A stretch of DNA of 56,591 bases from a virus, in the IMG/VR virus record IMGVR_UViG_3300027861_000038, positions 1 through 56,591 of that record; one strand, 5' to 3'. The notes under the pieces were generated by a model. The model was not told the DNA's origin. It made no database searches and saw only the letters and a program-made list of their open reading frames with translations. Made by a program: the position numbers and the translations under genes. This document shows, one piece after another, positions 1 through 26,866 of the stretch (within the stretch, counting starts at the first letter, position 1; every line of letters starts with the position of its first letter).

Positions 1-70
1 AAGGTTTTAGTCGGTGCTTCCGTAAAAAAAAAGGCAGTATGGAATCATTCTTGGTGGATGGTTCTTTGGA
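1..70. repeat. Left copy of terminal redundancy (circular junction)
   Basis: Bases 1-70 match the last 71 bases of the window, with one indel (nine versus ten A in the homopolymer at about 24-32) and two substitutions near the inner end. This means the sequence closes on itself, so the window is a circular or terminally redundant genome opened inside the giant ejection-protein gene. A 70-bp overlap fits an assembly junction better than a long packaging repeat. Confidence 0.85.
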
Positions 71-3000
71 GCCTCAAGAATCTGATGCTGAGGTTAAAAA
101 CTTAGAGTCATTCCTTACTGAGCAATTAGAGGAGACACCAACACAAGAAGTACAACCTAAGTATTATGAAGAGGTAGAGGCTCCGAGCGAAGCTCAGATA
201 CAGGATGCTGCTCAAGCTGACGAGGAGGCTGAAAGGCAATCTCAAGTAAGGGAATTAGGAGGGATTGAAAAGGTAACACAATTTGATGAGGTATACGATG
301 ACCCTGAAACTCAATTTGAAATAAACCTTGAGAACATAACCCCTGAACTTGTAGAGGGTTCAGAGGAAAAAGTTGTCCCATTTCTTAATGAAATATTTGA
401 ACAAGAGGGATTTAAGTTTGAAGAGGTTAGCCCTCTTTCAGACCAAATGTTGGTATACCCTCCCGGTGGAGGAGCACCTAAGCTATTTGAATTAGATGCC
501 AATACAGAGATTGAAGAGAAGTTTTTAAATAAAGGTCTCTATAATCCAAGGTATGCACGTAGAGTTAATCCAACTCTAAGTAAGAATATCGCAAAAGAGC
601 TAAAAAAATTCATTACCGATAACAGAGAAGAGGTCGTACCTGAAGGGGAAGGTAAAATGTTTATGACCGATGCTCGAAGAAAAAATGCAATTAAAGCAAA
701 TAAAGATAGGGAAGCCCGATATAAAAACAATACAAAAGAATACAAGGAGCTAAATGCTTCAATAGAAAAAGATGCCGAGGTATTTAGAGATTTATCTAAG
801 GAAGATATAAACGCAGACCCTGAGACGAGAGAACGATACGAATCTTATATAGATAATATAAAAACCGCAGAGATACAAAGGGAAGCTCTAATTGAAGAGA
901 CTAAGATATTAGCAGAGAAAGGTGTAGAGCTTGACGTTATAGCAGCCAACTCAGCAGAGGCACAGGCTCTTAGAGGAGATTGGCTTGGTGGTCTATACAA
1001 TTCGTTCCTTGGTGGTGTCGGAGATATAGGAGCAGGACTTGCAGGTACAGGCATAGACATAGCAACCAACTTTCAAAAGAATGCAGGCTCAGGTCTTAGC
1101 GATGAGCAGTTTAAAAAAGAGATAATAAGGGTATCTAAAGAGAATGATATAGAGCTTCCTGAGAACGCAGAGGAGATGACCTTAGAGGGATTAGAGAAGG
1201 CTATGGGTGGCAGGGCTTACTCAAGAGCACCTGAAACATACAATGAGCCTACACCATACCTGCAAGCATTTAATAAGGTACTTGATATATCTCGAAAAGG
1301 GAAAAAATATTTTGATGACTATGAGGGTGCAAAAAAAGGTAGGGCGAGAAGTGTATTCTCACGTACAGCAGACTATGCAGACTTAGGTGAGGGCACACTA
1401 AGTGCTATTAGAAAATCAGTAGTAGACGCATTAGGAGATAAGAACACTACAGAGCAATGGGCTGAACTAAAGTCAGAGGGATTCCTTGGTGGAGCTGTAT
1501 TAGGTCTGTCAAGAAGTCTTCCTGCTATGTCGGCTGCACTATTAGGTGGTGTACCGGGCGTATTAGCGTTAGCAGCACAGGCATCTGACTCCATATATAA
1601 AGAGATGGAGAATGACCCTGACTTTGCTGATATATCAGAATCTGAAAAAATGAAGGTGGCATTGCCAATAGCCTTAACGGTTGGTGTACTTGAGAGGGTA
1701 GGTCTTAGAAATGCTATCAGGGGTACAGGTATGCTAAACAAACTTGTATCGAAAGCTATAGGAAAGTCCACAGCAAGGACTACAGCCAAAGAGTTCACGG
1801 ACCTTGTAGAGACAGAGATAGCGAGTGGTGTTGCAAAAGGTCTGATAAGAGCAGGTGCAGCAGGTGCAGCAGAGTTCGAGACAGGATTCCTTCAGGAGAT
1901 AGCAGACGTAACTGTAAAGGATATGTATAATGAATCAAAGGGAAAGAAAATGTTTGACACCCCTGATACATTTGTAGATATGATTTCAGATGCTGCATAT
2001 GCAGGAGCACAGGAGGCAGTAGGTGGCTTTATATTAGGCAGCCCAAGGGCGGTACAGTCAGCAATATCAGGTAACACAGTATTATCTGATGAAGAGTTTC
2101 AATCATTAGAGGCGTTTGTACAAAATCCTGAACTACTTAATGTATATAAAGACAAACTTAAGTCAAAGGTAGCGAGTGGTCTTATGACTTTAAAAGGTGC
2201 TAATAATGAACTTACATCTTTAAAAACAGGGTTAGGTATAATAAGAGATACTGAAGCATTTTTCACAGGAGACGTACCTGTATCAGAAAAATCAGAGGCG
2301 TTCACTCTTGTTAGTAGAAAGAAACAATTACAGCAAGAGATAGAAGGAGCTGACCCTGAGTTGGTTACACCACAGCGAGAAGAACTTAAGAAAGTAAACG
2401 AGAGACTAACAGAAATTTCAAAAATAGATGCCATTCAAGAGCAAAGCACAGAGACGGTGGATGCACAAGAACCTGCCGAAAGTAGCCCAACAATGGGAGA
2501 TACAGTATCCGAAACAGAGACCATTACCGAACCGACTGAAGTCGACAAAGCTAAAGTCGAGGAAGAAGTAGCTTATATAGAAAGAAGGAGAGAGGAAGAG
2601 TTAAACTTAGAAAAACCTTTCAAACAAAAAAATGATGGGAGTGGTTTAGTTGAAATTAAAACAACTGTTACAGAAGAAGATGGTATTAAAAAAACTACAT
2701 TTAAAACAAAAACTACTAATAGAAAAGGAGAATCAAGAGAACTATTCGATAAGGGTTATAATACTATTGATGATTTATTTGAAGATTTAGGTTTTGAAGA
2801 AACTTATGAAGGAGAAGAAAAAGTATTAAGAGATTTAGCACAAGAAGGCAGAATAGCTGTAAAAGAAGTTAGAGAAATTAATGGTGTTTCAGTAGCTTCT
2901 ATTGAAATTGCAGGAAGTGTTCTTGATGTTAGTTTAAATAAAAGAAATAAAGACAACGCTAAATATGATGCTGAAATAGCAGAGGTTAGAGCTGCACAGC

Positions 3001-6000
3001 AAGTCGAGGAAGAGGCAACAACAGAACAAGAGGTAGAAGACTTTGAGGCGTTTATAGAAAGTGATAATGCACAGTTCCAATTGTCTCAGGGTACTACAGA
3101 TGAGAAGACAAAAAAGAAACAGACAAGAGAGGCGTTAAAGGTATTCAAAGAATTAGATAATCAGCCATTAGCTGAAGACGCTGTAGAAGTAGAGCAGCCT
3201 GATGTGGCTACAACACCGGTTAAGGTTGAGGATAACAATAGGCTTGCTAATAAGATTAAAAGGTTTAAGATGATTGATATCATAGGCAGGAAGCTAAACC
3301 TATTAATGGCTGATAAACTAAAAGTAGAACTAAAAGACCCAACGAAGCCATACAGTAAAGAAACCAATCCATATAAAATGATGGGAGGAAACTTCTTTCC
3401 GTTGATGGAAGATATGTTTGGTAAGATTGCGTGGGCATCAATCACAGATGCAGCGACAACAAAGATAATAAAGGGTGCGATGGACGGAGACTACTCTGTG
3501 GTCTACAATATGGGCAACGGTGGTATTATGTCAAATATTATCATAGCTGAGATGTTGGACGAGAAGATACCTGAAGGCAGAAAGGCAGAGTTTTATGAGC
3601 TTATCAAAGACAGGGTTAATGAATCAGGTTTGAAAGACGTTAAGCCTGCAAAAAAACACATAAAGGATAGTACCGATATGAACTCATTCTTTAAGCTATT
3701 ACAAGAAGAGAAGGTAGAGACAAGGGCTGCTGTTATGGAACTTATACTACCTGAAGACTTAGATATAAAGTCAAAGAGCACATTAGAGCAGGAACTACAG
3801 GGGCTTGGCATATCAAGAGATAGTCTAATCGAGGAGACGAGCGAGAGCTTTGCTAAGGACTTACCTACAGGTGCTATCACTATGGTGCTTGAGATTACAA
3901 ATAAGGATGGTATCAAGGTTAGCGAGCTAAAAAAGCAGCTTGATAAAAAACTTAAAAACAAAGAGATAACAGAAAATCAGTACGACAAGGGTATAGAAGA
4001 TATCATAGCGTCTGCAAAGATGACACAAGAGCAGCAAGAGGCTGAGGGTATACCAATCCATAATAACTACCCGTACTATATTAGAGGTAGGGCAGTTGCA
4101 ATGATGGAAGAGACTGTGCCATTCTACAAAGTGATTAAACAATACTCTGATACCCTTCAGGAAAGAGTATTAGGTAGAGACAAGAAGAAGGCAAGAGGAA
4201 TAAAAGAGGGTCTCAAAGATTTTGAGGAAAGAGTATACACCATTATTAACAAAGCTAAGGGAGATAAGGTATCAACAGTAGACAAAAAGGCTGCGATACA
4301 AGAGGTACTTGATTCAGAGGATTTCAAAAAATTAAAAGTTAAGGACAGGAAAGTAATCAAGCCGCTATTAGAGCAGGCTTTGGAATTAAATAGCAAGTCA
4401 AAGATAACCGAGGTGCTTGCAGTAGCAGAGACTCCTTTAGCTAAGATGAGGAGATATAGTGCAGCCGAGGCACAGGCTGCCGCAATGACTTCAGCTATGA
4501 CAACAAGTAGCACAGCGTATGCGATATCTGATTATGTGGCATCTGATTATGAAATATTCTTAAATAGGATTAGCAAGTCATTCCCCAATGTAGAAGTTGT
4601 AAGCACACAAGAAGAGTTTGACGCACTAATTGAAGACGTATATGCTAAGAGTCTGTCAACTAAAAACCAAACTATATATGGTGCTGTATACAGGGGCAAG
4701 CTATATCTAAACCCAAGACAAAGAAACTTCAATACTCCTATACACGAGTATGGGCATATATGGCTTAACACAGCGAAGCAGGAAAGACCTGACCTATACA
4801 AAAAAGGTATGGAGCTTATAACCAAGGACAACGCCTATATAGAACAGATTAAAAATAATCCTGACTACATCCGTGTTGTGAAGCAAATGAAGAAGGGTGG
4901 TGCTACAGATGCTGAGATAGATAGCTACATAAAAGAAGAGGCATTAGCTACAGCCATAGGAGATAAGGGTGAGGCATTCGTTAACGCATCTGTAAAGAGA
5001 AACTTCAAAGAGTGGCTTACTGATTTATTTAAAAACATTCAGAAGTTATTTGGTATATCTACATATACATCAGAGCAACTTCAGGATATCACGTTAGATG
5101 AGTTCTTACAGGGGATTACAGTAGACATACTATCAGGCAAGGAGGTGTTTAAAGATGCGAGTACCAAAGCGTTTTCAGATGCATTGCAGTTGATGACATC
5201 TACCGAGACAAAGGGATTAACCCCAACACAGATAATCCAAGTAGGTAGGGACAACAACTTTAAGGATAGCACTATTAAAGATTATTTAGTAAGGATTAAG
5301 GGCAATAAAGTCAAGGATATAGATGCACTACTAAGCACACCTGTAGACTTATTTTCTGATAAGTTCCCTGAGAGTTTTAATAATATCGAGGGCGGTGCAG
5401 CAAAAGGTACAAGGCTATATGACAGAGTAAATAAATTTGCCAATAAGCTTATACAGAAAAACAATAAGAACACAAGGCTAACAGACTTAGAGTTAAATGC
5501 TAAGGTAGAGGAGTTCGCAAGAGAACAGAAGAAAGACTACATTACTAATAGTCAGCTAAATGATAAGGTAAGAGAGTTTAGAGAAACACTTGAGGCAAAA
5601 AATTCAAAGCGTAAGAAGCCACTAACTGCTTCGCAGATAAACGCTAAGGTAAAAGATTTCAGAGAGTCTGAGATAATAGCAAGGGAAGAGACGAACAGTA
5701 TCATCCAAGAAAATATTACAGAGTTTAAAGACAACCTAACTGAGTCTAATAATAGAAAGGCTCCACTACTTTCAAAGCAGGATATTGTAGATAAGACAAT
5801 AGAGTTCTTAGAGGCACAGCCTGAGTATATAGCCGAGGCTGATACATATACAGTAGGTAGCGAGAAGAAGGGAACCAAGGAGACAAAGAGACGAAAGGGT
5901 TTATCCACACAGCAGGCATCTATGTTAAGCGACTTGCAGAAAGTTATTGGTATTAGACCATCACAGGATATGGCAGCTAAAATCAGTAAGGCTCGAAGGA

Positions 6001-9000
6001 TGATTACGCAAAGGAAAAAAGGTGCAAGAGATTTAAACGCAATAAAAACAGAGCTAAGGAACTTTATCAGGAAGACTATACCAAAAGCCACGTACACTAA
6101 ACCTGAAGTGATAAACTTAATTAGAAAGGTTAGCATTGCGAATGAGGCAAACATTGATAATATATATAATGAGGTATTAGAGTTTACAACGAAGAAGAAT
6201 GTAGAGATACTATCTAAAAATATTAATAAGATTTTAAGTGAGACATTCACTAAGGTTGAAAGCGGTAGGCTCAAAGGTGTAAAGATTGATGTCGCAAGCA
6301 AGGAGAGAATTGATGCAATCAAGAAGATGTTAGCTACTGAAGAGATGAGTGCTGAAGATATTCTTAATGCTAATGTCCTGCTAATGGCAGAGTATGTTGA
6401 ATTGCAACAAAATCCTGAGCCGACTATTGAGAGTCAATCCAAGATGTCAGACATTCAGATAGCAATGGAATACAATAACTCATTGCTAATGGAAGATACC
6501 GATATAAACAAGGTTACCTCTTTGGATTTAGTAAGCACATCTCTTGACGAGCTAATACAGGATGGTGTTACAAGATTAGATAGAGAGCTACAGATGGCTT
6601 CTCAAAAATACAAGGAGACATTTGAGTATATATATGAGGATGTTGTTGGGGAGCGTATTGATATGGACTCTCCTGATGCCAAGACAAGATTAGACAAGGC
6701 AAAAAGAAACAGAGCCACTCAGGCTGAGAGGGAGAGAGTTGCCGGCAATATCAAACGTGCGTTGAACATTATAGGTAGAGGTATATCTAATGTCTTTACA
6801 TCTGCCGAAGCACTCGATGGATTGATGGATAAGATTTCGTCACTACCGGGAGAGATGTTTGGTGGCAGGACTCAGGAGATAGTTACAGATAGGATTGATG
6901 CCGCATCAAGAGAGTTCAAGGGTAGGAAGATGTATGTAAGTGAGAGAATCAGAAAAGAACTTGAAGAAATCTATGGTAAGAAATGGAAGGAAGAGGCAAT
7001 AAAAAACACAAAGACAATTGGTACTGAGATATATAGGGATACACAAGAGATAGCTGATGCAAAGAAAGCATACGAAGCAAATCCTAATAGTGCTACAAAG
7101 GAAAGTTTAGCTAACGCCATATTAAACAATGAATTAATCTTGAGTCCGAATCAGATGTACTATTACTACAATCAATTCAAAGACCCTGCAAACCTTGGAG
7201 CATTCTCAAATATGTTTTCTCTTGAGAGCATTAGTAAGAATGATACACAAGAAGAGAAAGACCGCAAGAATAAAATAAATGAGGCGAACGCTAAGAGGGT
7301 AATGGATGAGGTTACATCTAAGCTGACTCCTGAATTAAAAACATTTGCTGATTGGCAGGTGAATGAGTTTTTCCCTGAGCTGTATGAGAGATATAATCCT
7401 GTATATAAAAAGATATACAGGACCAATATGCCTTGGAATGAGTTCTATGCAGGTATAATATACAGACAGGGAGTTGAGCTTGAGCCAATGGATTTACTCG
7501 CAGGATTAAATAGCTCATCTATGTCAGCAGTTACAGCAGCATCAAGCAAGATAAGGAAAGCTAACAATTTAGAGATAGCTAAGACGGATGGTACGAATGC
7601 ATTAGCAAACTACCTTGAGGATATGGAATACTTTGCAGCATATGCAGAGGTTATAAGAGATGTTAATAAGCTATTTACTAACGAGTATATTTCTGATGCC
7701 ATAACAAGTATGCACGGGAAGACTACAATGAATCTAATAAACGATTCTATTAAGAAGATAGCAAACAGAGGTGTGGCTAATACAACAGCAGACAGCCTTG
7801 TTAATGGTATGAACACCATATTTGCTACATCAAGAATTGGATTGAGTCCTGTTATTGCAGTTAAGCAGTTGACATCTGTATTCACATTTGCTAATGATAT
7901 TGGTATAGGTAATTGGGTAAGCTATGCAGGCAAGAGTATACCTGAGATATCAAAGACTTGGAAGGAAATAGTTGAAAACTCTATATACCTAAAAGATAGA
8001 TATGGCGAACAGATATTAAGAAATATAGAGAGCTATAGTGAGTCGTCAATGAAAGATTTTGTGCCAAACCCTACTAAAGAATTCATTATGAATGTCATAC
8101 TATACAATGTTAAGTGGGGAGATAGGACTGCTATTATGGTAGGTGGTATGCCTAACTATAATTTCTACAAGGCACAGTATAAAAAGAATAATCCCAACGC
8201 TACCGAACAGGATGCTATTGACTATGCCATAGTAAAGTTTGAAAGGGATACAAAGAGAACGCAGCAATCAGGTGACCTTCCTGATAAAGATGTATTTCAA
8301 ACAGGAAGCCCACTTGTAAGGGCAGCGAATATGTTCTTGACAACACCAAAGCAGTATCTAAGAAAAGAGATACAGGCAGTAAGGAATCTTAGCAGGAAGG
8401 TTTCACAATGGGATAAAAATGCAGGTAAGGGTACGGTAACAGAGAACATAAGAACCTTTCTTATGTACCACATATTTATGCCTGTGCTATTCCAATATAT
8501 ATCCGCAGGGCTACCGGGATTGTTTGCTGATTGGGAGGATGAAGATGAGCAAGACTTATTGAGAGCAGGGATACTTGGTAACCTTAATGCATTGTTTATA
8601 ATAGGTGAGGTTATTACAGGCATTGGAGATTATCTTACTCATAAGCCGTGGGCAGGTGAAGGTACTAAGTCAGTTGGTTTACTAAACCTCTCATCACAAT
8701 TGTTTAAAAAAGCAAAGAAGGCAAGAGATGCAAAAGACCTTGAGAAGAAATCTAAATATTGGAATGACTTTATCTTTGAGTCTGCAACAATAACGGGTCT
8801 ACCTGTACCAACATTAACGAGATTGTTTGAAAACATAACAGACATAGGAAGCGATAATGATATGGGTAAGGATGTCTTGAGACTTTTAAACTTTTCTAAA
8901 TACCAAATAGATGGTCCGACTAAGACTAAGGCTAAGGCTAAGACTAAGGCTAAGGATGATAGTGTAAGCACTACACCGGGATACTTTAGGAGGGGTGCTA

Positions 9001-9053
9001 AAAAGAAGAGACGTTCACGAAAGAGGTCTTCAGGTGGGCGAAGATTTTTTTAG
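39..9053 (+). CDS. Giant ejection/internal virion protein with zincin motif (main part)
   Basis: This is the 3004-residue main part of a protein whose first 68 residues lie at 56356-56559, giving about 3072 residues across the junction. The frame joins only if the A-run has ten A as in the right-end copy; the left copy has nine and cuts the frame upstream of the Met at 39. The N-terminus is acidic. Hydrophobic Gly/Ala-rich stretches lie near residues 315-345 and 490-515. A zincin signature HEYGH is at about 1569-1573. About four repeats of a LNxKVxEFRE-type motif lie near 1812-1925. The C-terminus is very basic with Lys-Ala-Lys-Thr and Arg/Lys clusters. It is last in the virion operon after two smaller ejection-type proteins, the position of T7 gp16, but more than twice as long. 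No RNA polymerase motif was seen. The peptidase may cut virion proteins or help entry; that is inference. Confidence 0.75.
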   Translation: MESFLVDGSLEPQESDAEVKNLESFLTEQLEETPTQEVQPKYYEEVEAPSEAQIQDAAQADEEAERQSQVRELGGIEKVTQFDEVYDDPETQFEINLENITPELVEGSEEKVVPFLNEIFEQEGFKFEEVSPLSDQMLVYPPGGGAPKLFELDANTEIEEKFLNKGLYNPRYARRVNPTLSKNIAKELKKFITDNREEVVPEGEGKMFMTDARRKNAIKANKDREARYKNNTKEYKELNASIEKDAEVFRDLSKEDINADPETRERYESYIDNIKTAEIQREALIEETKILAEKGVELDVIAANSAEAQALRGDWLGGLYNSFLGGVGDIGAGLAGTGIDIATNFQKNAGSGLSDEQFKKEIIRVSKENDIELPENAEEMTLEGLEKAMGGRAYSRAPETYNEPTPYLQAFNKVLDISRKGKKYFDDYEGAKKGRARSVFSRTADYADLGEGTLSAIRKSVVDALGDKNTTEQWAELKSEGFLGGAVLGLSRSLPAMSAALLGGVPGVLALAAQASDSIYKEMENDPDFADISESEKMKVALPIALTVGVLERVGLRNAIRGTGMLNKLVSKAIGKSTARTTAKEFTDLVETEIASGVAKGLIRAGAAGAAEFETGFLQEIADVTVKDMYNESKGKKMFDTPDTFVDMISDAAYAGAQEAVGGFILGSPRAVQSAISGNTVLSDEEFQSLEAFVQNPELLNVYKDKLKSKVASGLMTLKGANNELTSLKTGLGIIRDTEAFFTGDVPVSEKSEAFTLVSRKKQLQQEIEGADPELVTPQREELKKVNERLTEISKIDAIQEQSTETVDAQEPAESSPTMGDTVSETETITEPTEVDKAKVEEEVAYIERRREEELNLEKPFKQKNDGSGLVEIKTTVTEEDGIKKTTFKTKTTNRKGESRELFDKGYNTIDDLFEDLGFEETYEGEEKVLRDLAQEGRIAVKEVREINGVSVASIEIAGSVLDVSLNKRNKDNAKYDAEIAEVRAAQQVEEEATTEQEVEDFEAFIESDNAQFQLSQGTTDEKTKKKQTREALKVFKELDNQPLAEDAVEVEQPDVATTPVKVEDNNRLANKIKRFKMIDIIGRKLNLLMADKLKVELKDPTKPYSKETNPYKMMGGNFFPLMEDMFGKIAWASITDAATTKIIKGAMDGDYSVVYNMGNGGIMSNIIIAEMLDEKIPEGRKAEFYELIKDRVNESGLKDVKPAKKHIKDSTDMNSFFKLLQEEKVETRAAVMELILPEDLDIKSKSTLEQELQGLGISRDSLIEETSESFAKDLPTGAITMVLEITNKDGIKVSELKKQLDKKLKNKEITENQYDKGIEDIIASAKMTQEQQEAEGIPIHNNYPYYIRGRAVAMMEETVPFYKVIKQYSDTLQERVLGRDKKKARGIKEGLKDFEERVYTIINKAKGDKVSTVDKKAAIQEVLDSEDFKKLKVKDRKVIKPLLEQALELNSKSKITEVLAVAETPLAKMRRYSAAEAQAAAMTSAMTTSSTAYAISDYVASDYEIFLNRISKSFPNVEVVSTQEEFDALIEDVYAKSLSTKNQTIYGAVYRGKLYLNPRQRNFNTPIHEYGHIWLNTAKQERPDLYKKGMELITKDNAYIEQIKNNPDYIRVVKQMKKGGATDAEIDSYIKEEALATAIGDKGEAFVNASVKRNFKEWLTDLFKNIQKLFGISTYTSEQLQDITLDEFLQGITVDILSGKEVFKDASTKAFSDALQLMTSTETKGLTPTQIIQVGRDNNFKDSTIKDYLVRIKGNKVKDIDALLSTPVDLFSDKFPESFNNIEGGAAKGTRLYDRVNKFANKLIQKNNKNTRLTDLELNAKVEEFAREQKKDYITNSQLNDKVREFRETLEAKNSKRKKPLTASQINAKVKDFRESEIIAREETNSIIQENITEFKDNLTESNNRKAPLLSKQDIVDKTIEFLEAQPEYIAEADTYTVGSEKKGTKETKRRKGLSTQQASMLSDLQKVIGIRPSQDMAAKISKARRMITQRKKGARDLNAIKTELRNFIRKTIPKATYTKPEVINLIRKVSIANEANIDNIYNEVLEFTTKKNVEILSKNINKILSETFTKVESGRLKGVKIDVASKERIDAIKKMLATEEMSAEDILNANVLLMAEYVELQQNPEPTIESQSKMSDIQIAMEYNNSLLMEDTDINKVTSLDLVSTSLDELIQDGVTRLDRELQMASQKYKETFEYIYEDVVGERIDMDSPDAKTRLDKAKRNRATQAERERVAGNIKRALNIIGRGISNVFTSAEALDGLMDKISSLPGEMFGGRTQEIVTDRIDAASREFKGRKMYVSERIRKELEEIYGKKWKEEAIKNTKTIGTEIYRDTQEIADAKKAYEANPNSATKESLANAILNNELILSPNQMYYYYNQFKDPANLGAFSNMFSLESISKNDTQEEKDRKNKINEANAKRVMDEVTSKLTPELKTFADWQVNEFFPELYERYNPVYKKIYRTNMPWNEFYAGIIYRQGVELEPMDLLAGLNSSSMSAVTAASSKIRKANNLEIAKTDGTNALANYLEDMEYFAAYAEVIRDVNKLFTNEYISDAITSMHGKTTMNLINDSIKKIANRGVANTTADSLVNGMNTIFATSRIGLSPVIAVKQLTSVFTFANDIGIGNWVSYAGKSIPEISKTWKEIVENSIYLKDRYGEQILRNIESYSESSMKDFVPNPTKEFIMNVILYNVKWGDRTAIMVGGMPNYNFYKAQYKKNNPNATEQDAIDYAIVKFERDTKRTQQSGDLPDKDVFQTGSPLVRAANMFLTTPKQYLRKEIQAVRNLSRKVSQWDKNAGKGTVTENIRTFLMYHIFMPVLFQYISAGLPGLFADWEDEDEQDLLRAGILGNLNALFIIGEVITGIGDYLTHKPWAGEGTKSVGLLNLSSQLFKKAKKARDAKDLEKKSKYWNDFIFESATITGLPVPTLTRLFENITDIGSDNDMGKDVLRLLNFSKYQIDGPTKTKAKAKTKAKDDSVSTTPGYFRRGAKKKRRSRKRSSGGRRFF
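8927..8957 (+). repeat. Six-base tandem repeat in the giant gene
   Basis: Tandem copies of a six-base unit (ctaagg/ctaaga) encode alternating Thr/Ala-Lys residues just before the Arg/Lys-rich C-terminus of the giant protein. It is a likely length-variable linker in the basic tail. Confidence 0.7.
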
Positions 9054-22194: not shown

Positions 22195-22202
22195 CAAAGG
22201 TA
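22195..22202 (-). promoter_or_regulatory. Putative -7 promoter box (TACCTTTG)
   Basis: The minus strand reads TACCTTTG, followed by about 32 nt of AT-rich leader before the ATG at 22162. It matches the Bacteroidetes TAnnTTTG consensus and marks the end of the stem-loop leader array. Confidence 0.6.
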
Positions 22203-22222: not shown

Positions 22223-22432
22223 CTAATCTGTTTCAGCTATCTCGTTTAACTTTAGCCAAAAATCCTTATATCCGTGAGCATTTACTGCAATTCCCGAATG
22301 TTGCCAATTGTGAGGCGAGTCTACTTTTTTAGTAACCTTTCGCCATCTTAATGAATTTCCACCACGAAGATGAATAGGTTTGCACCTTACCATCTGACCT
22401 ACTTTAATTCTTTCTACTTTTAAATTTTCCAT
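22223..22432 (-). CDS. Hypothetical small protein (leader-array gene 12)
   Basis: A 69-residue basic protein with several His, Trp and Arg residues (LRGGNSLRWRKVTKKVDSPH). No family is recognised. It is the last of the twelve genes that carry the stem-loop leader. Confidence 0.5.
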   Translation of the reverse strand: MENLKVERIKVGQMVRCKPIHLRGGNSLRWRKVTKKVDSPHNWQHSGIAVNAHGYKDFWLKLNEIAETD

Positions 22433-22455
22433 AATATTTTTTTTCTGTTACTACC

Positions 22456-22487
22456 AATAGCCCTATACCAAATGGTATAGGGCTATT
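22456..22487 (-). promoter_or_regulatory. Stem-loop leader 12
   Basis: A perfect 14-bp stem (22456-22469 with 22474-22487) and a 4-nt loop. On the minus strand it is followed by TGGTAGTAACAG, an A-rich tract and the ATG at 22432. It belongs to the twelve-member leader family and has the same stem type as leaders 2 and 7. Confidence 0.85.
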
Positions 22488-22495
22488 AGTTTGAT

Positions 22496-23047
22496 TTAGA
22501 ATGATGGGTCTCTGTACTGTTCAGCTACTCCAAAAATAATCGAAGTTCTACTGAAGTTTTTGTACTTCTTTGTCAAACCGTCAATTAGCTTATGATAGAA
22601 CATTCCTTCTCCTTCTCCTTCAACTATATCGTCATATGTCAAACCACGTTCTGATAGTAATATGTCCAGCCATCCGTATCCGTACTCCTTGTAGTACTTC
22701 TTCTCTAAGGACTTAATTATATCTACAGAGTAACTAATTTCTCCCCAACAAGATTTCTTTGCATTCCATTCTAACGTTAATGTATGTCCTTCTGAATTGT
22801 CGCTATACTCATAACGCTCGTCTCCGTAACTCTCTCCTACAAACTTAGTGTTCATTTCTTGAATCACGCAGCTCAAACCATCATCGGACACCTCAATAAC
22901 TTGGTACGCTTGTCTGTCTGAATACCCTAAAATTGTTGCACCTTCTCCAACAATTGGAATGCTTGAATTGTTGCCCATCATTTGGTTAATAAAGCCTCCA
23001 GCAACACCAACTTTTCTACTTTGTCTTTTTTCTATTTCGTTTTTCAT
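22496..23047 (-). CDS. Hypothetical protein (leader-array gene 11)
   Basis: A 183-residue protein, the longest in the leader array. The first half is beta-rich (GEGATILGYSDRQAYQVIEV), the second contains KKYYKEYGYGWLDILLSERG. No family is recognised. Probably a host-takeover protein, judging only by its early position. Confidence 0.5.
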   Translation of the reverse strand: MKNEIEKRQSRKVGVAGGFINQMMGNNSSIPIVGEGATILGYSDRQAYQVIEVSDDGLSCVIQEMNTKFVGESYGDERYEYSDNSEGHTLTLEWNAKKSCWGEISYSVDIIKSLEKKYYKEYGYGWLDILLSERGLTYDDIVEGEGEGMFYHKLIDGLTKKYKNFSRTSIIFGVAEQYRDPSF

Positions 23048-23068
23048 AATATTTTTATACTACCAAAT

Positions 23069-23093
23069 CCCGTACACCAAGTAGATGTACGGG
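23069..23093 (-). promoter_or_regulatory. Stem-loop leader 11
   Basis: An 8-bp stem CCCGTACA/TGTACGGG (23069-23076 with 23086-23093). On the minus strand it is followed by TTTGGTAGTATAAAAATATT and the ATG at 23047. Confidence 0.85.
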
Positions 23094-23106
23094 TAAGTTT
23101 TTTACT

Positions 23107-23433
23107 TTAAATTTGAGACCAATCCGACCATAATTGTGCAATCAAAAGATTCTCAATATCTATTTTATTATATATCAAATGATATATATTTTCAAATGCC
23201 ATTTGCCTTTCATTTTCAAACCTTTCTCCTGTCAATATAGATGTATCAAATGGTGTAAAATCTCCAATTATTCTGCTTATTTCCCTTGCTTTGTGGTAGT
23301 ATATTACGTTTTCGTCATTATCAATCATCTCCCAAATTAGGTCATTTAGTGTATCAATATCTTCAATTTCATTGTCTGCAATTAAATCTTTGATTTGCTC
23401 TGTGTACTCGTTTATTAAATTTTCTATTGTCAT
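23107..23433 (-). CDS. Hypothetical acidic protein (leader-array gene 10)
   Basis: The start is set at 23433 (MTIENLINEY) because this ATG directly follows the leader motif GGTGGTAT; an ATG at 23457 would place the leader inside the coding sequence. A 108-residue, acidic, helical protein of unknown function. Confidence 0.55.
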   Translation of the reverse strand: MTIENLINEYTEQIKDLIADNEIEDIDTLNDLIWEMIDNDENVIYYHKAREISRIIGDFTPFDTSILTGERFENERQMAFENIYHLIYNKIDIENLLIAQLWSDWSQI

Positions 23434-23445
23434 ATACCACCAAAT

Positions 23446-23471
23446 CCCGTACACCAATTAAGATGCACGGG
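23446..23471 (-). promoter_or_regulatory. Stem-loop leader 10
   Basis: An 8-bp stem with one mismatch (23446-23453 with 23464-23471) of the CCCGTACA type. On the minus strand it is followed by ATTTGGTGGTAT and the ATG at 23433. Confidence 0.75.
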
Positions 23472-23480
23472 TATTGATGT

Positions 23481-23522
23481 GTTATTTGCACGGGGGCAAA
23501 TGTTATTTGCACGGGGGCAAAT
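23481..23522. repeat. Tandem 21-bp direct repeat
   Basis: Two exact copies of a 21-bp unit (23481-23501 and 23502-23522), with the first six bases of a third. Each unit holds a small inverted repeat TTTGC/GCAAA around a GC-rich loop. It lies between the stop of one leader-array gene and the next leader. Confidence 0.85.
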
Positions 23523-23532
23523 GTTATTATGA

Positions 23533-23973
23533 CTATGCACCTATAGCCCTTTCAGATTCTGCATATGCGATATTATATGCTTCCTCATTAATGCATCTGT
23601 CGTTGATGCTTAGAATTTTTTCTTGTTGTTGGGTTAAGGAATCATAGTCAATTATATTATTAATCTTAGTTCCTCCACAGGCATCACATTCAATGTCTGT
23701 TCTTCCACTAAAATAATCCTCGTGAAAACCCTCATCTATAATTCCATTTTCATCGTACATCATCGATGAAATGTCATATCCTCCCACATCATATCTTGAC
23801 CTATGCCCACTTCCATTACAGGTGTCACACCAATCAACTTTGCAAGGTAGAATGGTTTTACAAATCCCATCTGAGATAGTTATTTTAGACTTTAAATCAT
23901 CTGAGAAATCTTCTTCCTCGTATCTGTAGATAAAACTTTTGTGCAATTTGTATTCAATTTTTTTACTTTTCAT
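23533..23973 (-). CDS. DnaJ-type zinc-finger-like small protein (leader-array gene 9)
   Basis: The start is set at 23973 (MKSKKIEYKL), directly after the leader motif; the ATG at 23988 lies inside it. The 146-residue product has CDTCNGSGH (an exact CxxCxGxG unit) and CDACGGTK (CxxCxG), about 45 residues apart, like two halves of a DnaJ-type zinc finger. It has no J domain. It may bind unfolded protein or a partner via zinc; function unknown. Confidence 0.6.
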   Translation of the reverse strand: MKSKKIEYKLHKSFIYRYEEEDFSDDLKSKITISDGICKTILPCKVDWCDTCNGSGHRSRYDVGGYDISSMMYDENGIIDEGFHEDYFSGRTDIECDACGGTKINNIIDYDSLTQQQEKILSINDRCINEEAYNIAYAESERAIGA

Positions 23974-23983
23974 ACCACCACAT

Positions 23984-24009
23984 CCCACATACCAATGAAG
24001 ATATGTGGG
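23984..24009 (-). promoter_or_regulatory. Stem-loop leader 9
   Basis: An 8-bp stem CCCACATA/TATGTGGG (23984-23991 with 24002-24009). On the minus strand it is followed by ATGTGGTGGT and the ATG at 23973. The stem sequence differs from its neighbours but pairing is kept. Confidence 0.85.
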
Positions 24010-24037
24010 TAAGTGTTTGTGATGGGTTTGCTTTGTT

Positions 24038-24184
24038 TTAAATTATTATTAATATAAATTTCCGAAATGGCAGTTTAATTCTATAAATTGACCCGTTGTA
24101 ATTTTTGTAAGCTAATGATATTATTTTAGCTTGGTTGTAATTCTTTGCAAATGTTCCGATTCGTACTTTCATTTTTGTGTTCAT
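24038..24184 (-). CDS. 48-aa basic hypothetical protein (leader-array gene 8)
   Basis: A short reading frame found by reading the minus strand: it starts MNTKMKVRIGTFAKNYNQAK, is rich in Lys, Tyr and Ile, and ends in TAA at 24038. It has the same leader stem-loop, A-rich initiation region and spacing as its neighbours, which supports it being real despite its length. Confidence 0.6.
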   Translation of the reverse strand: MNTKMKVRIGTFAKNYNQAKIISLAYKNYNGSIYRIKLPFRKFILIII

Positions 24185-24210
24185 AATATTTTTTTTCTGT
24201 TACCACCTAA

Positions 24211-24238
24211 ACCCGTACACCAATTAAGATGTACGGGT
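24211..24238 (-). promoter_or_regulatory. Stem-loop leader 8
   Basis: A 9-bp stem ACCCGTACA/TGTACGGGT (24211-24219 with 24230-24238). On the minus strand it is followed by TTAGGTGGTAACAG, an A-rich tract and the ATG at 24184, the same layout as leader 12. Confidence 0.85.
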
Positions 24239-24250
24239 ATTGATGTGTTA

Positions 24251-24478
24251 TTATAAATTATCTCTACTTGAGTTATTTACTATCATTTGACTGGTAGGTG
24301 CTATTCCAAAATAAGTGTTTAATTTACCATATATATGTCTACAATGGTTCATTATTTTCTCTGAATCATATTCTAATTGTTCCCCTTTGTAATCTGTAAC
24401 GGGATACCATATAGTTTCAAACCCTTCATTCACGAAAGTTACCCAAGCCATTTCTTTATCTAATTCTATTCTGTTCAT
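24251..24478 (-). CDS. Hypothetical small protein (leader-array gene 7)
   Basis: A 75-residue protein starting MNRIELDKEMAWVTFVNEGF, of mixed structure. No family is recognised. Confidence 0.5.
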   Translation of the reverse strand: MNRIELDKEMAWVTFVNEGFETIWYPVTDYKGEQLEYDSEKIMNHCRHIYGKLNTYFGIAPTSQMIVNNSSRDNL

Positions 24479-24483
24479 ACTAC

Positions 24484-24517
24484 CAATAGCCCTACACCAT
24501 TTGGTGTAGGGCTATTG
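24484..24517 (-). promoter_or_regulatory. Stem-loop leader 7
   Basis: A perfect 15-bp stem (24484-24498 with 24503-24517) and 4-nt loop. On the minus strand TAGTATG follows, so the ATG at 24478 lies 5 nt after the stem. It is the most compact of the set. Confidence 0.88.
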
Positions 24518-24539
24518 TTTGTGATGTGATAAGGATTAA

Positions 24540-24767
24540 TTAATTTTCCTCTAAATGTTGCTGAATTAAATTGCTTTCTATTAAAAAGCATCCGATGATT
24601 TTAGATTGGGCAATTTCGGTTAAAATCTTATCTACTGAGTAACCTTTTATGCCGAAATTACGATACAAATATTGAATTCTTAATGCCTCAAGTAATTCTT
24701 GTGCATCGCCATTTAAGATTTGCTTTTTTTCAACTTCTACCAATTTATTAAATTCTTTTCTTGTCAT
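24540..24767 (-). CDS. Hypothetical small protein (leader-array gene 6)
   Basis: The start is set at 24767 (MTRKEFNKLVEVEKKQIL), next to the leader motif; an ATG at 24782 lies inside the stem. A 75-residue helical protein of unknown function. Confidence 0.55.
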   Translation of the reverse strand: MTRKEFNKLVEVEKKQILNGDAQELLEALRIQYLYRNFGIKGYSVDKILTEIAQSKIIGCFLIESNLIQQHLEEN

Positions 24768-24777
24768 ACTACCAAAT

Positions 24778-24803
24778 CCCACAAACCAATTAAGATTTGT
24801 GGG
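24778..24803 (-). promoter_or_regulatory. Stem-loop leader 6
   Basis: An 8-bp stem CCCACAAA/TTTGTGGG (24778-24785 with 24796-24803). On the minus strand it is followed by ATTTGGTAGT and the ATG at 24767. Confidence 0.85.
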
Positions 24804-24826
24804 GATTGTTTTGTGATATGTTTGGA

Positions 24827-25048
24827 TTAATGGAAATATAAATCTTCGTGAGACGTTGCTCCAATTGGCTCGCCATACACATAGTCGTTTATTGCCTTAT
24901 CCATCAACTTGTAATAGATGGAATCGATGTACTCATCCCTACAATTGCTTTGCATCTGGTTACCATCGCTGAAATGCACTTTAAACACTGGACTCATTCC
25001 TGCTCTAACGCGATAAATTTTAGTTACTTTTAAATCTGTTTTTGTCAT
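24827..25048 (-). CDS. Hypothetical small protein (leader-array gene 5)
   Basis: A 73-residue protein starting MTKTDLKVTKIYRVRAGMSP. Its first eight codons nearly match those of gene 4 and resemble gene 2, while the rest differs. Function unknown. Confidence 0.55.
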   Translation of the reverse strand: MTKTDLKVTKIYRVRAGMSPVFKVHFSDGNQMQSNCRDEYIDSIYYKLMDKAINDYVYGEPIGATSHEDLYFH

Positions 25049-25057
25049 ACTACCAAA

Positions 25058-25084
25058 ACCCGTACACCATTAAGATGTACGGGT
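25058..25084 (-). promoter_or_regulatory. Stem-loop leader 5
   Basis: A 9-bp stem ACCCGTACA/TGTACGGGT (25058-25066 with 25076-25084). On the minus strand it is followed by TTTGGTAGT and the ATG at 25048. Confidence 0.85.
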
Positions 25085-25104
25085 ATTGATGTGTTTGTTG
25101 TTGT

Positions 25105-25368
25105 TTATGTCCAATAATTTTTAATCCTCAAACCTTTAGTTCTTATGGCTTCATTCATTTCGGCAGAACTTACGGTAAAAAAATTATCTTTGAAATCTTG
25201 AAAGAATTCGTAAGAATTTTCCCAATTTTCTATGTGTTTTTTTGAATCCACGAAAAGAAATGCTTCTTCTTCGCTTTCAAACTCATCGATAACTTTGTTA
25301 TTGTTACCTCCATCTATTAAAAAATAGGTGCTTTCATTTGTTGTTACTTTTAAATCTGTATCTGTCAT
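25105..25368 (-). CDS. Hypothetical small protein (leader-array gene 4)
   Basis: The start is set at 25368 (MTDTDLKVTTNESTYFLIDG), directly after the leader; an upstream ATG at 25386 lies in the stem. An 87-residue acidic, aromatic-rich protein of unknown function. Confidence 0.55.
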   Translation of the reverse strand: MTDTDLKVTTNESTYFLIDGGNNNKVIDEFESEEEAFLFVDSKKHIENWENSYEFFQDFKDNFFTVSSAEMNEAIRTKGLRIKNYWT

Positions 25369-25373
25369 ACTAC

Positions 25374-25411
25374 CAATACCCCACATCCATTGTCTAGGAT
25401 GTGGGGTATTG
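25374..25411 (-). promoter_or_regulatory. Stem-loop leader 4
   Basis: A perfect 15-bp stem (25374-25388 with 25397-25411) and 8-nt loop. On the minus strand TAGTATG follows, with the ATG at 25368. The stem is of the CCCCACATCC type, different from its neighbours. Confidence 0.88.
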
Positions 25412-25428
25412 TTTGTGATGTGATGTTG

Positions 25429-25674
25429 TTAGTATAATTCGCTTTTTTCGATTCGCTTTACCTCATATTTTGGCAACTCATAGCAATAGTCTAAATATTT
25501 ATCAAATGAACTTTCGCATTTTTTGTCCCATTTTTTGTAGGATTTTTCATCCCCTTCGCTATCTGCAATGTTTCTTAGATTGTCGTATTCATTGTACTTT
25601 TTTAGCCATTGTATGGCCTTCTTGAAATTGCTTTGATTCGCTTTATTTTTTGCTTTAAATTTTGTATCTTTCAT
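25429..25674 (-). CDS. Hypothetical basic small protein (leader-array gene 3)
   Basis: An 81-residue Lys- and Tyr-rich protein starting MKDTKFKAKNKANQSNFKKA. No family is recognised. Confidence 0.5.
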   Translation of the reverse strand: MKDTKFKAKNKANQSNFKKAIQWLKKYNEYDNLRNIADSEGDEKSYKKWDKKCESSFDKYLDYCYELPKYEVKRIEKSELY

Positions 25675-25683
25675 ACTACCAAA

Positions 25684-25709
25684 ACCCCTACACCAAATGG
25701 TGTAGGGGT
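25684..25709 (-). promoter_or_regulatory. Stem-loop leader 3
   Basis: A perfect 11-bp stem ACCCCTACACC/GGTGTAGGGGT (25684-25694 with 25699-25709) and 4-nt loop. On the minus strand it is followed by TTTGGTAGT and the ATG at 25674. Confidence 0.88.
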
Positions 25710-25729
25710 ATTAGTTGTGATGGTCATAA

Positions 25730-25975
25730 TTATCCTTTATAATTTACCTTTATCCAACTTAATAAAATGTCTTTGTTTTGGTCATCTAATTCCATAAACC
25801 AAGAAAAAAAAGCTAGTGTACCTTTTCGTTCATACATATCGCTAAACTTAGATTGTAAGTGATTTGACATACTATCCTTCCATACTTGTGAGATGAAATT
25901 TGTAGGGTAATTATGCCCAAATAACATAAATTTAGTGATTGCTTTTGATGTGTTTTTAAAATCTGTGTTTGTCAT
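25730..25975 (-). CDS. Hypothetical small protein (leader-array gene 2)
   Basis: An 81-residue protein starting MTNTDFKNTSKAITKFMLFG. It shares the MTxTDxK start with genes 4 and 5 but nothing beyond it. Function unknown. Confidence 0.5.
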   Translation of the reverse strand: MTNTDFKNTSKAITKFMLFGHNYPTNFISQVWKDSMSNHLQSKFSDMYERKGTLAFFSWFMELDDQNKDILLSWIKVNYKG

Positions 25976-25983
25976 ATACTACC

Positions 25984-26015
25984 AATAGCCCTATACCAAA
26001 TGGCATAGGGCTATT
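25984..26015 (-). promoter_or_regulatory. Stem-loop leader 2
   Basis: A 14-bp stem with one mismatch (25984-25997 with 26002-26015) and 4-nt loop. On the minus strand it is followed by GGTAGTAT and the ATG at 25975. Confidence 0.85.
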
Positions 26016-26034
26016 GCTTGTGATGGGTTAGGGA

Positions 26035-26358
26035 TTAAGATAATAATCTTTTAATATCTGCTTCTGTTTTTTTACGTTTAGCTGATTCCATTTCGTATGC
26101 AATCACCTCTTTTTGCACAAACCATTCCACAACTGCTCTGTTTTCATCCATACCATCACAACCCCAACTTGTGCCCGAAACACCGTCTTTTTTAACCCAC
26201 ATAACTGCTTGGAATAAATCACCATACTTTGGATTGATTTCTACACGATAGTTTACTTCCAATCCATTCTCAAGATGAATAGTTTTCTTGCCGTTTTCTT
26301 TGTTTGCTACAACTGCAAATCTGTCTAATTTCTGTAATAATTCTTTAACGTTTTCCAT
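26035..26358 (-). CDS. Hypothetical protein (leader-array gene 1)
   Basis: A 107-residue protein and the first leftward gene after the control region, so probably among the earliest expressed. The central part is beta-rich (GLEVNYRVEINPKYGDLFQA), and the C-terminus is a basic helix. No family is recognised. Confidence 0.55.
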   Translation of the reverse strand: MENVKELLQKLDRFAVVANKENGKKTIHLENGLEVNYRVEINPKYGDLFQAVMWVKKDGVSGTSWGCDGMDENRAVVEWFVQKEVIAYEMESAKRKKTEADIKRLLS

Positions 26359-26383
26359 AATATTTTTTGCTTTATATCACCAA

Positions 26384-26413
26384 AACCTCGCAGCCGTGGT
26401 ATGGCTCGAGGTT
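26384..26413 (-). promoter_or_regulatory. Stem-loop leader 1
   Basis: A stem of 7 + 4 bp with one bulged base (AACCTCG/CGAGGTT outer, AGCC/GGCT inner) and a 7-nt loop. On the minus strand it is followed by TTGGTGATATAAAGC, an A-rich tract and the ATG at 26358. It has the same position and flanks as the other leaders but a different stem. Confidence 0.7.
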
Positions 26414-26511
26414 CCAATTTATTTTAGTATGTCAATGAACCAGGGTAGTCCCTACTATAGTGTCCAATAAAATGGACGCTGCTTTCGGGGTCGGTTACCT
26501 TTTCAACAATG

Positions 26512-26519
26512 CAAATATA
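26512..26519 (-). promoter_or_regulatory. Putative leftward early promoter box (TATATTTG)
   Basis: The minus strand reads TATATTTG about 150 nt before the first leftward gene. The implied leader includes small inverted repeats and stem-loop leader 1. It is the likely main promoter of the stem-loop leader array. Confidence 0.55.
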
Positions 26520-26737
26520 ATATCACAGATATCATATAAACTAATTTCTTTGTAAAATAAATTAATCTTTTGTTAATATATTATCTTGTATCTCAGCAAT
26601 ACTGCGCCTTTCAGAGCGAAATTTTTTTTGTGTTTTTTTCCCTTCATTCGTTTAGGCTGGCAAAATTGCGCCCAGGGATTAAGCCTTCCCTCAAGGTATG
26701 CAGGCTATATATATATATATTGTATGGGGATATTATA

Positions 26738-26866
26738 CGGGTATGGGGTAACGGGTAACGGGTAACGGGTATAGGTACGGGGTGCGTAAAACGGGTAGGT
26801 AGGTAGGTAGTGCCATAGATAATGTAGGTAGGTATGTAGGTAGGTAGTGCCATAGGTAAACGCCAA
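26738..26866. repeat. GGGTAAC and GGTA tandem repeats
   Basis: Three tandem copies of a 7-bp unit (GGGTAAC, about 26746-26769) are followed by two blocks of tandem GGTA (about 26794-26810 and 26825-26848). Each block ends in GGTAGTGCCATAG. The 4-bp and 7-bp periods and the repeated block ends look like iteron-like binding sites, though simple expansion is possible. Confidence 0.7.

Follow-up and report, generated by a model that had tools for sequence, protein, structure and literature searches.

On the sequences compared, an array of twelve hairpin leaders in a viral genome fragment is an expanded copy of a wider, undescribed leader family whose copies elsewhere stand mostly singly before small genes. 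The fragment comprises 56,591 nucleotides (IMG/VR record IMGVR_UViG_3300027861_000038, positions 1 to 56,591; the whole stretch is referred to as the window), and its array consists of twelve minus-strand genes in a row, from 26358 down to 22223, each behind a hairpin, with the hairpins at 22453-26413. A first-pass annotation, made from the letters alone, had described twelve such hairpins at this place; all were found and the observation is confirmed, and the interpretation attached to it is partly supported. The leaders may be copies of a cis-acting RNA element that moves horizontally among phages of hosts making no use of Shine-Dalgarno (SD) signals and that would give each cistron its own 5′ boundary, a reading for which belief and doubt are evenly balanced.

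Pairing, layout and gene starts of the leader array

Eleven leaders display a common, gap-free geometry in which a 10-bp stem closes a loop of 4-8 nt, and the 10-nt 3′ arm is followed by 2 nt and then by (T/A/G)(T/G/A)GGTRGTA. In these eleven leaders CC/GG or C/G adjoins the loop, and CC/GG is also placed close to the stem base. Leader 1 is divergent (26413-26384, AACCTCGAGCC..GGCTGCGAGGTT) and contains a single bulged G; having no gap-free register, it was left out of the pairing test. All 110 stem cells of the other eleven leaders pair (102 Watson-Crick, 8 G-U and 0 other) over nine distinct stems, which bears out the earlier statement that the stems differ and still pair. When the 3′ arms are permuted among leaders, a mean of 88 cells remains paired and none of 10,000 permutations reaches 110; this permutation is independent of any structure-fitted alignment, and column shuffles and slid partners give the same verdict. 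A model built from ten leaders finds 11 of the 12 in the window, ten of which match by construction, and misses leader 1. The compensatory changes had been read as selection on RNA structure. The pairing is indeed kept, but template switching during replication can also create and maintain hairpins and thereby restore stem pairing (PMC8794818), and the perfect stems could be partly due to this process.

The leaders are mosaic, with stem types and 3′ extensions freely combined, as in leaders 5 and 8 and in leaders 2 and 12, the stem of leader 12 being that of leader 2. The upstream CATCACAAACAATA form noted in the first-pass annotation holds for about half of the leaders, the remainder having CACATCAATA or CTTA variants. 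A scan for the TAnnTTTG motif identifies TATATTTG as the only intergenic Bacteroidota-type box from 26519 down to gene 12, and none within the intergenic leader units, where the TTTG part varies. The next box, TACCTTTG at 22202, is promoter-like and lies directly before gene 13 (22162), a gene without a hairpin. For twelve leaders and twelve genes, one leader precedes the first gene of the operon and none trails the last, an arrangement that ties the element to the gene downstream of it.

In eight array genes the ATG directly closes the conserved GGTRGTA, as the first-pass annotation had it for the whole array; in genes 1, 8, 11 and 12 the ATG is further on, past an A-rich stretch ending in ATATT. 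The similarity of the leaders runs on into the coding sequence of genes 2-5, a feature missing from that annotation. Over the first 27 coding bases the eight ATG-abutting genes have a mean identity of 54%, against 34% for the other minus-strand genes of the phage, and ATGACANANACAGATTT(A/T)AAA is common to genes 2, 4 and 5. Gene 4 is related to a gene of Nonlabens phage P12024S (68% identity across 73 residues), starts 13 residues before this homologue (MKTYFLIDG) and lacks the start codon used there, while the homologue has no hairpin. Because both the N-terminus of gene 4 and its hairpin are absent from the P12024S homologue, a unit of leader, start codon and N-terminal codons has, to judge by this comparison, been joined to a pre-existing gene at least once. 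This case and the mosaic leaders agree with the cassette-like behaviour suggested earlier. Among the sequences compared, no homologue was found for any of genes 1-12 except gene 4; a PHROG family is matched well by gene 4 only and weakly by gene 3, and the gene 4 protein has no relative in the viral contigs scanned.

A leader family in unrelated phages

The array had been taken as isolated, which the comparison with other phages corrects. Covariance model R2, built from fifteen elements of other viral contigs and containing no window sequence, recovers 11 of the 12 window leaders, leader 1 included, with no further match in the window at E <= 1. The leader consensus reads, 5′ to 3′, a G-poor A/C-rich flank, a hairpin, UUUUGGURGUAU and the start codon. 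The counts from collection scans are samples and no census, and the model E-values are rough. A GGGTTTTGGTRGTAT scan of viral contigs returns at least about twenty in which a strong hairpin immediately precedes the site. Since this pattern fixes part of the 3′ arm (GGG), the scan was repeated with TTTTGGTGGTATAA alone; among the matches listed, a hairpin adjoins 20 of 132 sites (15%), compared with 1.25% of positions drawn at random from those contigs. Where a start was found the elements are mostly located 9-48 nt before a small open reading frame (ORF), in many cases past the stop codon of the upstream gene. Other records hold one to three elements each, sometimes 400-700 bases apart before nearby genes (e.g. 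G032, G033 and G034), and the twelve-leader window is the extreme case among the records compared.

Alignment A4 comprises 43 rows, two of which represent a single terminator-like hairpin read on both strands (L244 9677-9707), which lacks the motif. Over its 42 distinct rows 88.8% of cells are paired, all 8 modelled pairs change on both sides, and covariation amounts to 0.677 against 0.203 in shuffled alignments and at most 0.168 with slid partners, values that are biased towards pairing by the fitting of the alignment to the structure. Covariation in other phages, the check named in the first-pass annotation, is thus strong in unrelated carriers, whereas phages related to the window by their terminase (1.38 Mb) contain no element at E < 0.3. 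The carriers include an elemo/Cellulophaga-like podovirus (L332), a P12024-like phage (L274), an HK97-type phage (L341) and a contig with a long-tail tape-measure protein (L364). As the carriers are unrelated and close relatives are without the element, its presence is independent of phage descent; the distribution suggests that the leader moves with genes between phages. A small-protein family with the motif KVKLGDVNY keeps the leader with different stems in L274, L288, L290 and L349. In the contigs seen (these four and L267, whose member is more distant) KVKLGDVNY proteins always lie behind the leader; for this family Pfam yielded nothing above cut-off and the phage collection no homologue.

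The genomes of thirteen characterised phages, almost all of which infect Bacteroidota, contain no convincing copy. A borderline match in Cellulophaga phage phi4:1 was rejected for want of a hairpin, and a P12024S match to model R1 proved to be an ordinary terminator where two genes converge. A strict pattern in the form of the window leaders, which matches 7 of them, finds nothing in the viral contigs scanned and three isolated matches in non-Bacteroidota genome contigs. A GGGNNTTGGTAGTATG scan yields at least 119 sites, mostly chance, with one true new carrier (L185), and a CATCACAAACAATANCCC scan found no relatives. Against 4227 Rfam covariance models the array region gives only two matches, both sub-threshold (E 0.19 and 0.79) and far under the gathering scores, and six other element contigs give no match at E <= 0.5. 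The L244 9677-9707 hairpin combines a CTGAGATAAA loop with a short run of T and lacks GGTRGTA. As it is situated in a genome that also has true elements (G001), it hints that element hairpins and terminators share ancestry.

Probable sense RNA folding and proposed action at cistron boundaries

A structure formed in the transcript tolerates G-U pairs and not A-C. The window stems contain 8 G-U and 0 A-C cells. Over all sites, with symmetric scoring, G-U and A-C number 20 and 7 at score >= 10 and 7 and 0 at score >= 12, and the A-C cells in verified elements are found at places where the search had extended into the CTGAAAYAAA loop. In one scan GGG was fixed in the 3′ arm, which favours G-U; the elements from the scan without fixed GGG (L390, L395 and L437) hold 4 G-U and 0 A-C. 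Because G-U exceeds A-C mispairs, the sense RNA is probably the molecule that folds, on modest counts, in keeping with the earlier preference for RNA over DNA. SD-like motifs precede 25 of 360 starts in the pooled element contigs, near the shuffled level of 16 and with L390 as an exception, compared with 354 of 1394 starts in comparison contigs (127 when shuffled). Judged by the starts in their contigs, the carriers would be phages of hosts that do not use SD. The element flank has the composition A.40, C.29, G.07 and T.24, against.38,.14,.19 and.30 upstream of other ORFs.

In the proposed mechanism the unit would begin at its 5′ end with a single-stranded stretch rich in A and C and poor in G. 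A stable hairpin would come next, any sequence being allowed in it provided that it pairs, then an invariant single-stranded UU(UU)GGURGUAU and the start codon, either immediately (most of the array) or after 10-40 nt, as is usual elsewhere. Acting after transcription, the unit would supply every cistron of a long early-type transcript with its own 5′ boundary. The hairpin would serve as a barrier, protecting the 5′ end following cleavage in the A/C-rich stretch and also shielding the start region against RNA and ribosomes from upstream. A factor, either the ribosome or an RNase, would read GGURGUAU. We infer that the leader acts on mRNA stability or translation and that a reading factor exists. 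A related possibility, tentative and rather doubtful, is that the mobile leader family replaces the missing SD signal, with the hairpin and GGURGUAU recruiting or positioning the ribosome, possibly together with a phage factor, and captured genes being expressed at once. A 5′-boundary element for each cistron is preferred over strict ribosome positioning because a fixed motif stands at a loose distance from the AUG, the flank is rich in A and C with little G, and the array starts are structured.

Several observations weigh against the proposed action. Flank pairing with the 3′ motif is not above flank shuffles (median 0.44), and an outer helix between the flank and GGUGGU, attractive in single folds, was rejected on that ground. 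Starts in Flavobacterium johnsoniae favour an unstructured region from -20 to +20, with A at -3, at -6 and at -12/-13 (PMC6847099). The strong hairpin at about -11 to -36 in the array is the opposite of this initiation preference (PMC6847099), and the pairing probability of array starts is 0.79 (-20..-11) and 0.61 (-10..-1) against 0.37 for the other genes of the phage. In the wider family the start region itself is A-rich and ordinary, with the hairpin lying upstream of it. Motif and AUG are about 9 to 48 nt apart, a variation that weakens direct ribosome positioning, and no RNase or RNA-binding partner was identified. A search for a phage-encoded bS21 gave no match, and a likeness of CCCGTAC stems to 16S helix 45 was dropped since the stems vary freely.

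Alternatives in which the unit acts on transcription start from the resemblance of the element hairpins to terminator hairpins of the same contigs, one of which has a similar loop (L244 9677-9707). As a leaky terminator or a hairpin-stabilised pause, the hairpin with U4 would slow or partly end transcription wherever one gene gives way to the next, and would grade expression or couple it to translation; the fixed U4 directly after the stem in the wider family and the bases conserved up to about 12 nt from the hairpin, which fit the geometry of his-type pauses, agree with such a role. However, none of the twelve leaders passes a terminator scan on its own strand, although some have four T, and the earlier claim that these are not ordinary terminators, having no T-tract, stands. 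Leaders 2, 4, 7 and 12 have a paired UAUUG in place of the U-tract, so that GGURGUA is kept and the U's are not. Motif-less hairpins in these contigs have 4-8 T, often >= 6, whereas the element has nearly always exactly 4, then GG; and leader 1 stands before the first gene. This explanation is unlikely. A promoter is improbable, whether as a composite terminator-promoter resembling the PeSL (early promoter plus stem-loop) modules of T4-like phages or as a hairpin promoter for a phage RNA polymerase as in N4. The motif-to-ATG distance of 9-48 nt resembles the length of a 5′ untranslated region, TGnTATAA is contained in TTTTGGTGGTATAA, and PeSLs are described as composite promoter-terminator motifs tied to T4-like gene shuffling (titles cited in PMC4503421). 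In contrast, the units have no host-type TAnnTTTG box, TGnTATAA is missing from GGTAGTATG forms, the start codon abuts the motif in eight array genes, and the G-U excess favours RNA. No RNA polymerase was seen in the 3004-aa ORF of the window, which has no such match in Pfam, PHROG or PDB.

Explanations at the level of DNA are also disfavoured. It is rather improbable that the repeats are recombination spacers or mutational relics without RNA function, serving gene shuffling and kept perfect by template switching in replication. Mosaic leaders (5/8 and 2/12) before unrelated genes, the Sak annealing protein and exonuclease encoded by the phage, and the known creation and maintenance of hairpins by template switching (PMC8794818) speak for this origin, but template switching does not explain the invariant GGURGUA tail, the tie to gene starts across phages or the mispairs, which are G-U and not A-C. 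Retention of the leader before the KVKLGDVNY family in L274, L288, L290 and L349 also argues against it, as does the absence of attC core sites from the leader hairpins and of any tyrosine recombinase from the record. Protein-bound DNA palindromes, proposed for the sites of cluster K mycobacteriophages discussed below, would similarly place repeated inverted repeats beside start codons; as the arm sequences differ between units with pairing kept, where a binding site would keep its sequence, this is highly improbable here.

The nearest parallels share only part of the leader's traits. In cluster K mycobacteriophages, start-associated sequences (SAS) and extended SAS (ESAS) are repeats directly upstream of many small genes with a mosaic distribution (PMC3203893). 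They resemble the leader in combining inverted repeats with a conserved sequence near the start codon of small phage genes (PMC3203893), and differ in motif sequence and host and in that the leader's stem sequence is free with pairing kept. The leader consensus differs from the 13-bp GGGATAGGAGCCC that adjoins the start in SAS, and the leader does not have the ESAS trait of 17-bp imperfect inverted repeats with a conserved consensus that does not support RNA pairing; in ESAS sites RNA pairing was sought and not found. The PeSLs of T4-like phages, named earlier as the closest analogy, are alike as stem-loops bounding small shuffled genes and suspected of aiding gene exchange (cited in PMC4503421). 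The array likewise has stem-loops between shuffled genes, the genes being mostly orphans and the leaders mosaic. The analogy is incomplete, since a PeSL unit contains an early promoter, whereas no promoter is seen per unit here, the sole promoter-like site is upstream of the array, and the leader has an invariant GGURGUAU after the stem. T7 RNase III sites and the processing hairpin upstream of T4 gene 32 are also intergenic hairpins in a polycistronic transcript, with structure kept and sequence variable (T4 references in PMC3014915). The 10-bp stem is short for RNase III, and the conserved 3′ motif and A/C-rich flank are foreign to those sites. Integron attC sites similarly have one hairpin per gene cassette with conserved structure and variable sequence; the R′/R″ core sites are absent from the leader hairpins. 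The hairpin promoters of the N4 virion RNA polymerase are short, GC-rich and just upstream of early genes, but the pairing asymmetry of the leader favours sense RNA, and in the array the motif runs straight into the start codon.

How Bacteroidota phages, in a phylum without SD use, efficiently express dozens of small captured genes is a question to which the leader would offer an answer that can be tested directly. Compact and portable, with its stem free and its GGURGUAU tail fixed, it may also mark accessory gene cassettes in phages whose annotation is very poor, and could become an expression part for Bacteroidota bacteria.

Coordinates and genome setting

Table 1. Predicted promoter element, hairpin leaders (5′ arm/3′ arm + 3′ extension) and cassette-borne codons, in window positions.
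Feature	Position	Strand	Sequence	Gene	Basis or remark
Promoter -7 element, Bacteroidota-type	26512..26519	-	TATATTTG		Motif scan, predicted
Leader 1	26376..26413	-	AACCTCGAGCC/GGCT(G)CGAGGTT + TTGGTGAT	Gene 1, 26035-26358	R2 match 26364-26425, E = 2.6e-5
Leader 2	25976..26016	-	CAATAGCCCTATGCC/GGTATAGGGCTATTG + GTAGTAT	Gene 2, 25730-25975	Also R2
Leader 3	25675..25709	-	ACCCCTACACC/GGTGTAGGGGT + TTTGGTAGT	Gene 3, 25429-25674	Also R2
Leader 4	25369..25411	-	CAATACCCCACATCC/GGATGTGGGGTATTG + GTAGT	Gene 4, 25105-25368, starting at the leader's ATG	Also R2
Start codon and N-terminal codons of gene 4, cassette-borne	25326..25368	-	MTDTDLKVTTNES	Gene 4	Absent from P12024S homologue
Leader 5	25049..25084	-	ACCCGTACATC/GGTGTACGGGT + TTTGGTAGT	Gene 5, 24827-25048	Also R2
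Leader 6	24768..24803	-	CCCACAAATC/GGTTTGTGGG + ATTTGGTAGT	Gene 6, 24540-24767	Also R2
Leader 7	24479..24517	-	CAATAGCCCTACACC/GGTGTAGGGCTATTG + GTAGT	Gene 7, 24251-24478	Also R2
Leader 8	24200..24238	-	ACCCGTACATC/GGTGTACGGGT + TTAGGTGGTA, then ACAGAAAAAAAATATT	Gene 8, 24038-24184	Also R2
Leader 9	23974..24009	-	CCCACATATC/GGTATGTGGG + ATGTGGTGGT	Gene 9, 23533-23973	Also R2
Leader 10	23434..23471	-	CCCGTGCATC/GGTGTACGGG + ATTTGGTGGTAT	Gene 10, 23107-23433	Also R2
Leader 11	23056..23093	-	CCCGTACATC/GGTGTACGGG + ATTTGGTAGTATA, then AAAATATT	Gene 11, 22496-23047	Also R2
Leader 12	22449..22490	-	ACTAATAGCCCTATACC/GGTATAGGGCTATTGGT + AGTA, then ACAGAAAAAAAATATT	Gene 12, 22223-22432	Not reached by R2 at E <= 1

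The terminase, portal and GroEL of the window indicate kinship with flavobacterial podoviruses, namely the Flavobacterium elemo phages, Cellulophaga and Tenacibaculum phages and the uncultured podovirus genome MW202828. A 1551-aa structural protein weakly matches the crAss-type muzzle, under the curated cut-off. The 3004-aa ORF (window 39-9053) contains HEYGH, resembling an HExxH metalloprotease motif, and a basic C-terminus; it has no clear match of any kind in Pfam, PHROG or PDB, and its product is probably a virion protein that is injected.

An exact 21-bp tandem repeat of 2.3 copies (TGTTATTTGCACGGGGGCAAA, + strand) is located between genes 9 and 10 at window 23480-23528, adjoining leader 10 upstream. 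Upstream of the array promoter, window 26737-26847 contains five copies of the 7-mer ACGGGTA (+ strand) together with GGTA/ATGTAGGTAGGT repeats. On the minus strand this 7-mer reads TACCCGT, a near-match to the CCCGTAC stem arms. The gene block that holds these repeats encodes two proteins with a DnaA C-terminal domain, and for this reason 26737-26847 is possibly an origin or a regulatory region. In the relatives L228, L224, L230, L231 and L236 a different repeated palindrome, with G/C-rich arms around GTGTCTT(T/C)AAAGACAC, is found before several genes; some copies are followed by T-tracts, and they form a second hairpin family, unlike that of the array.

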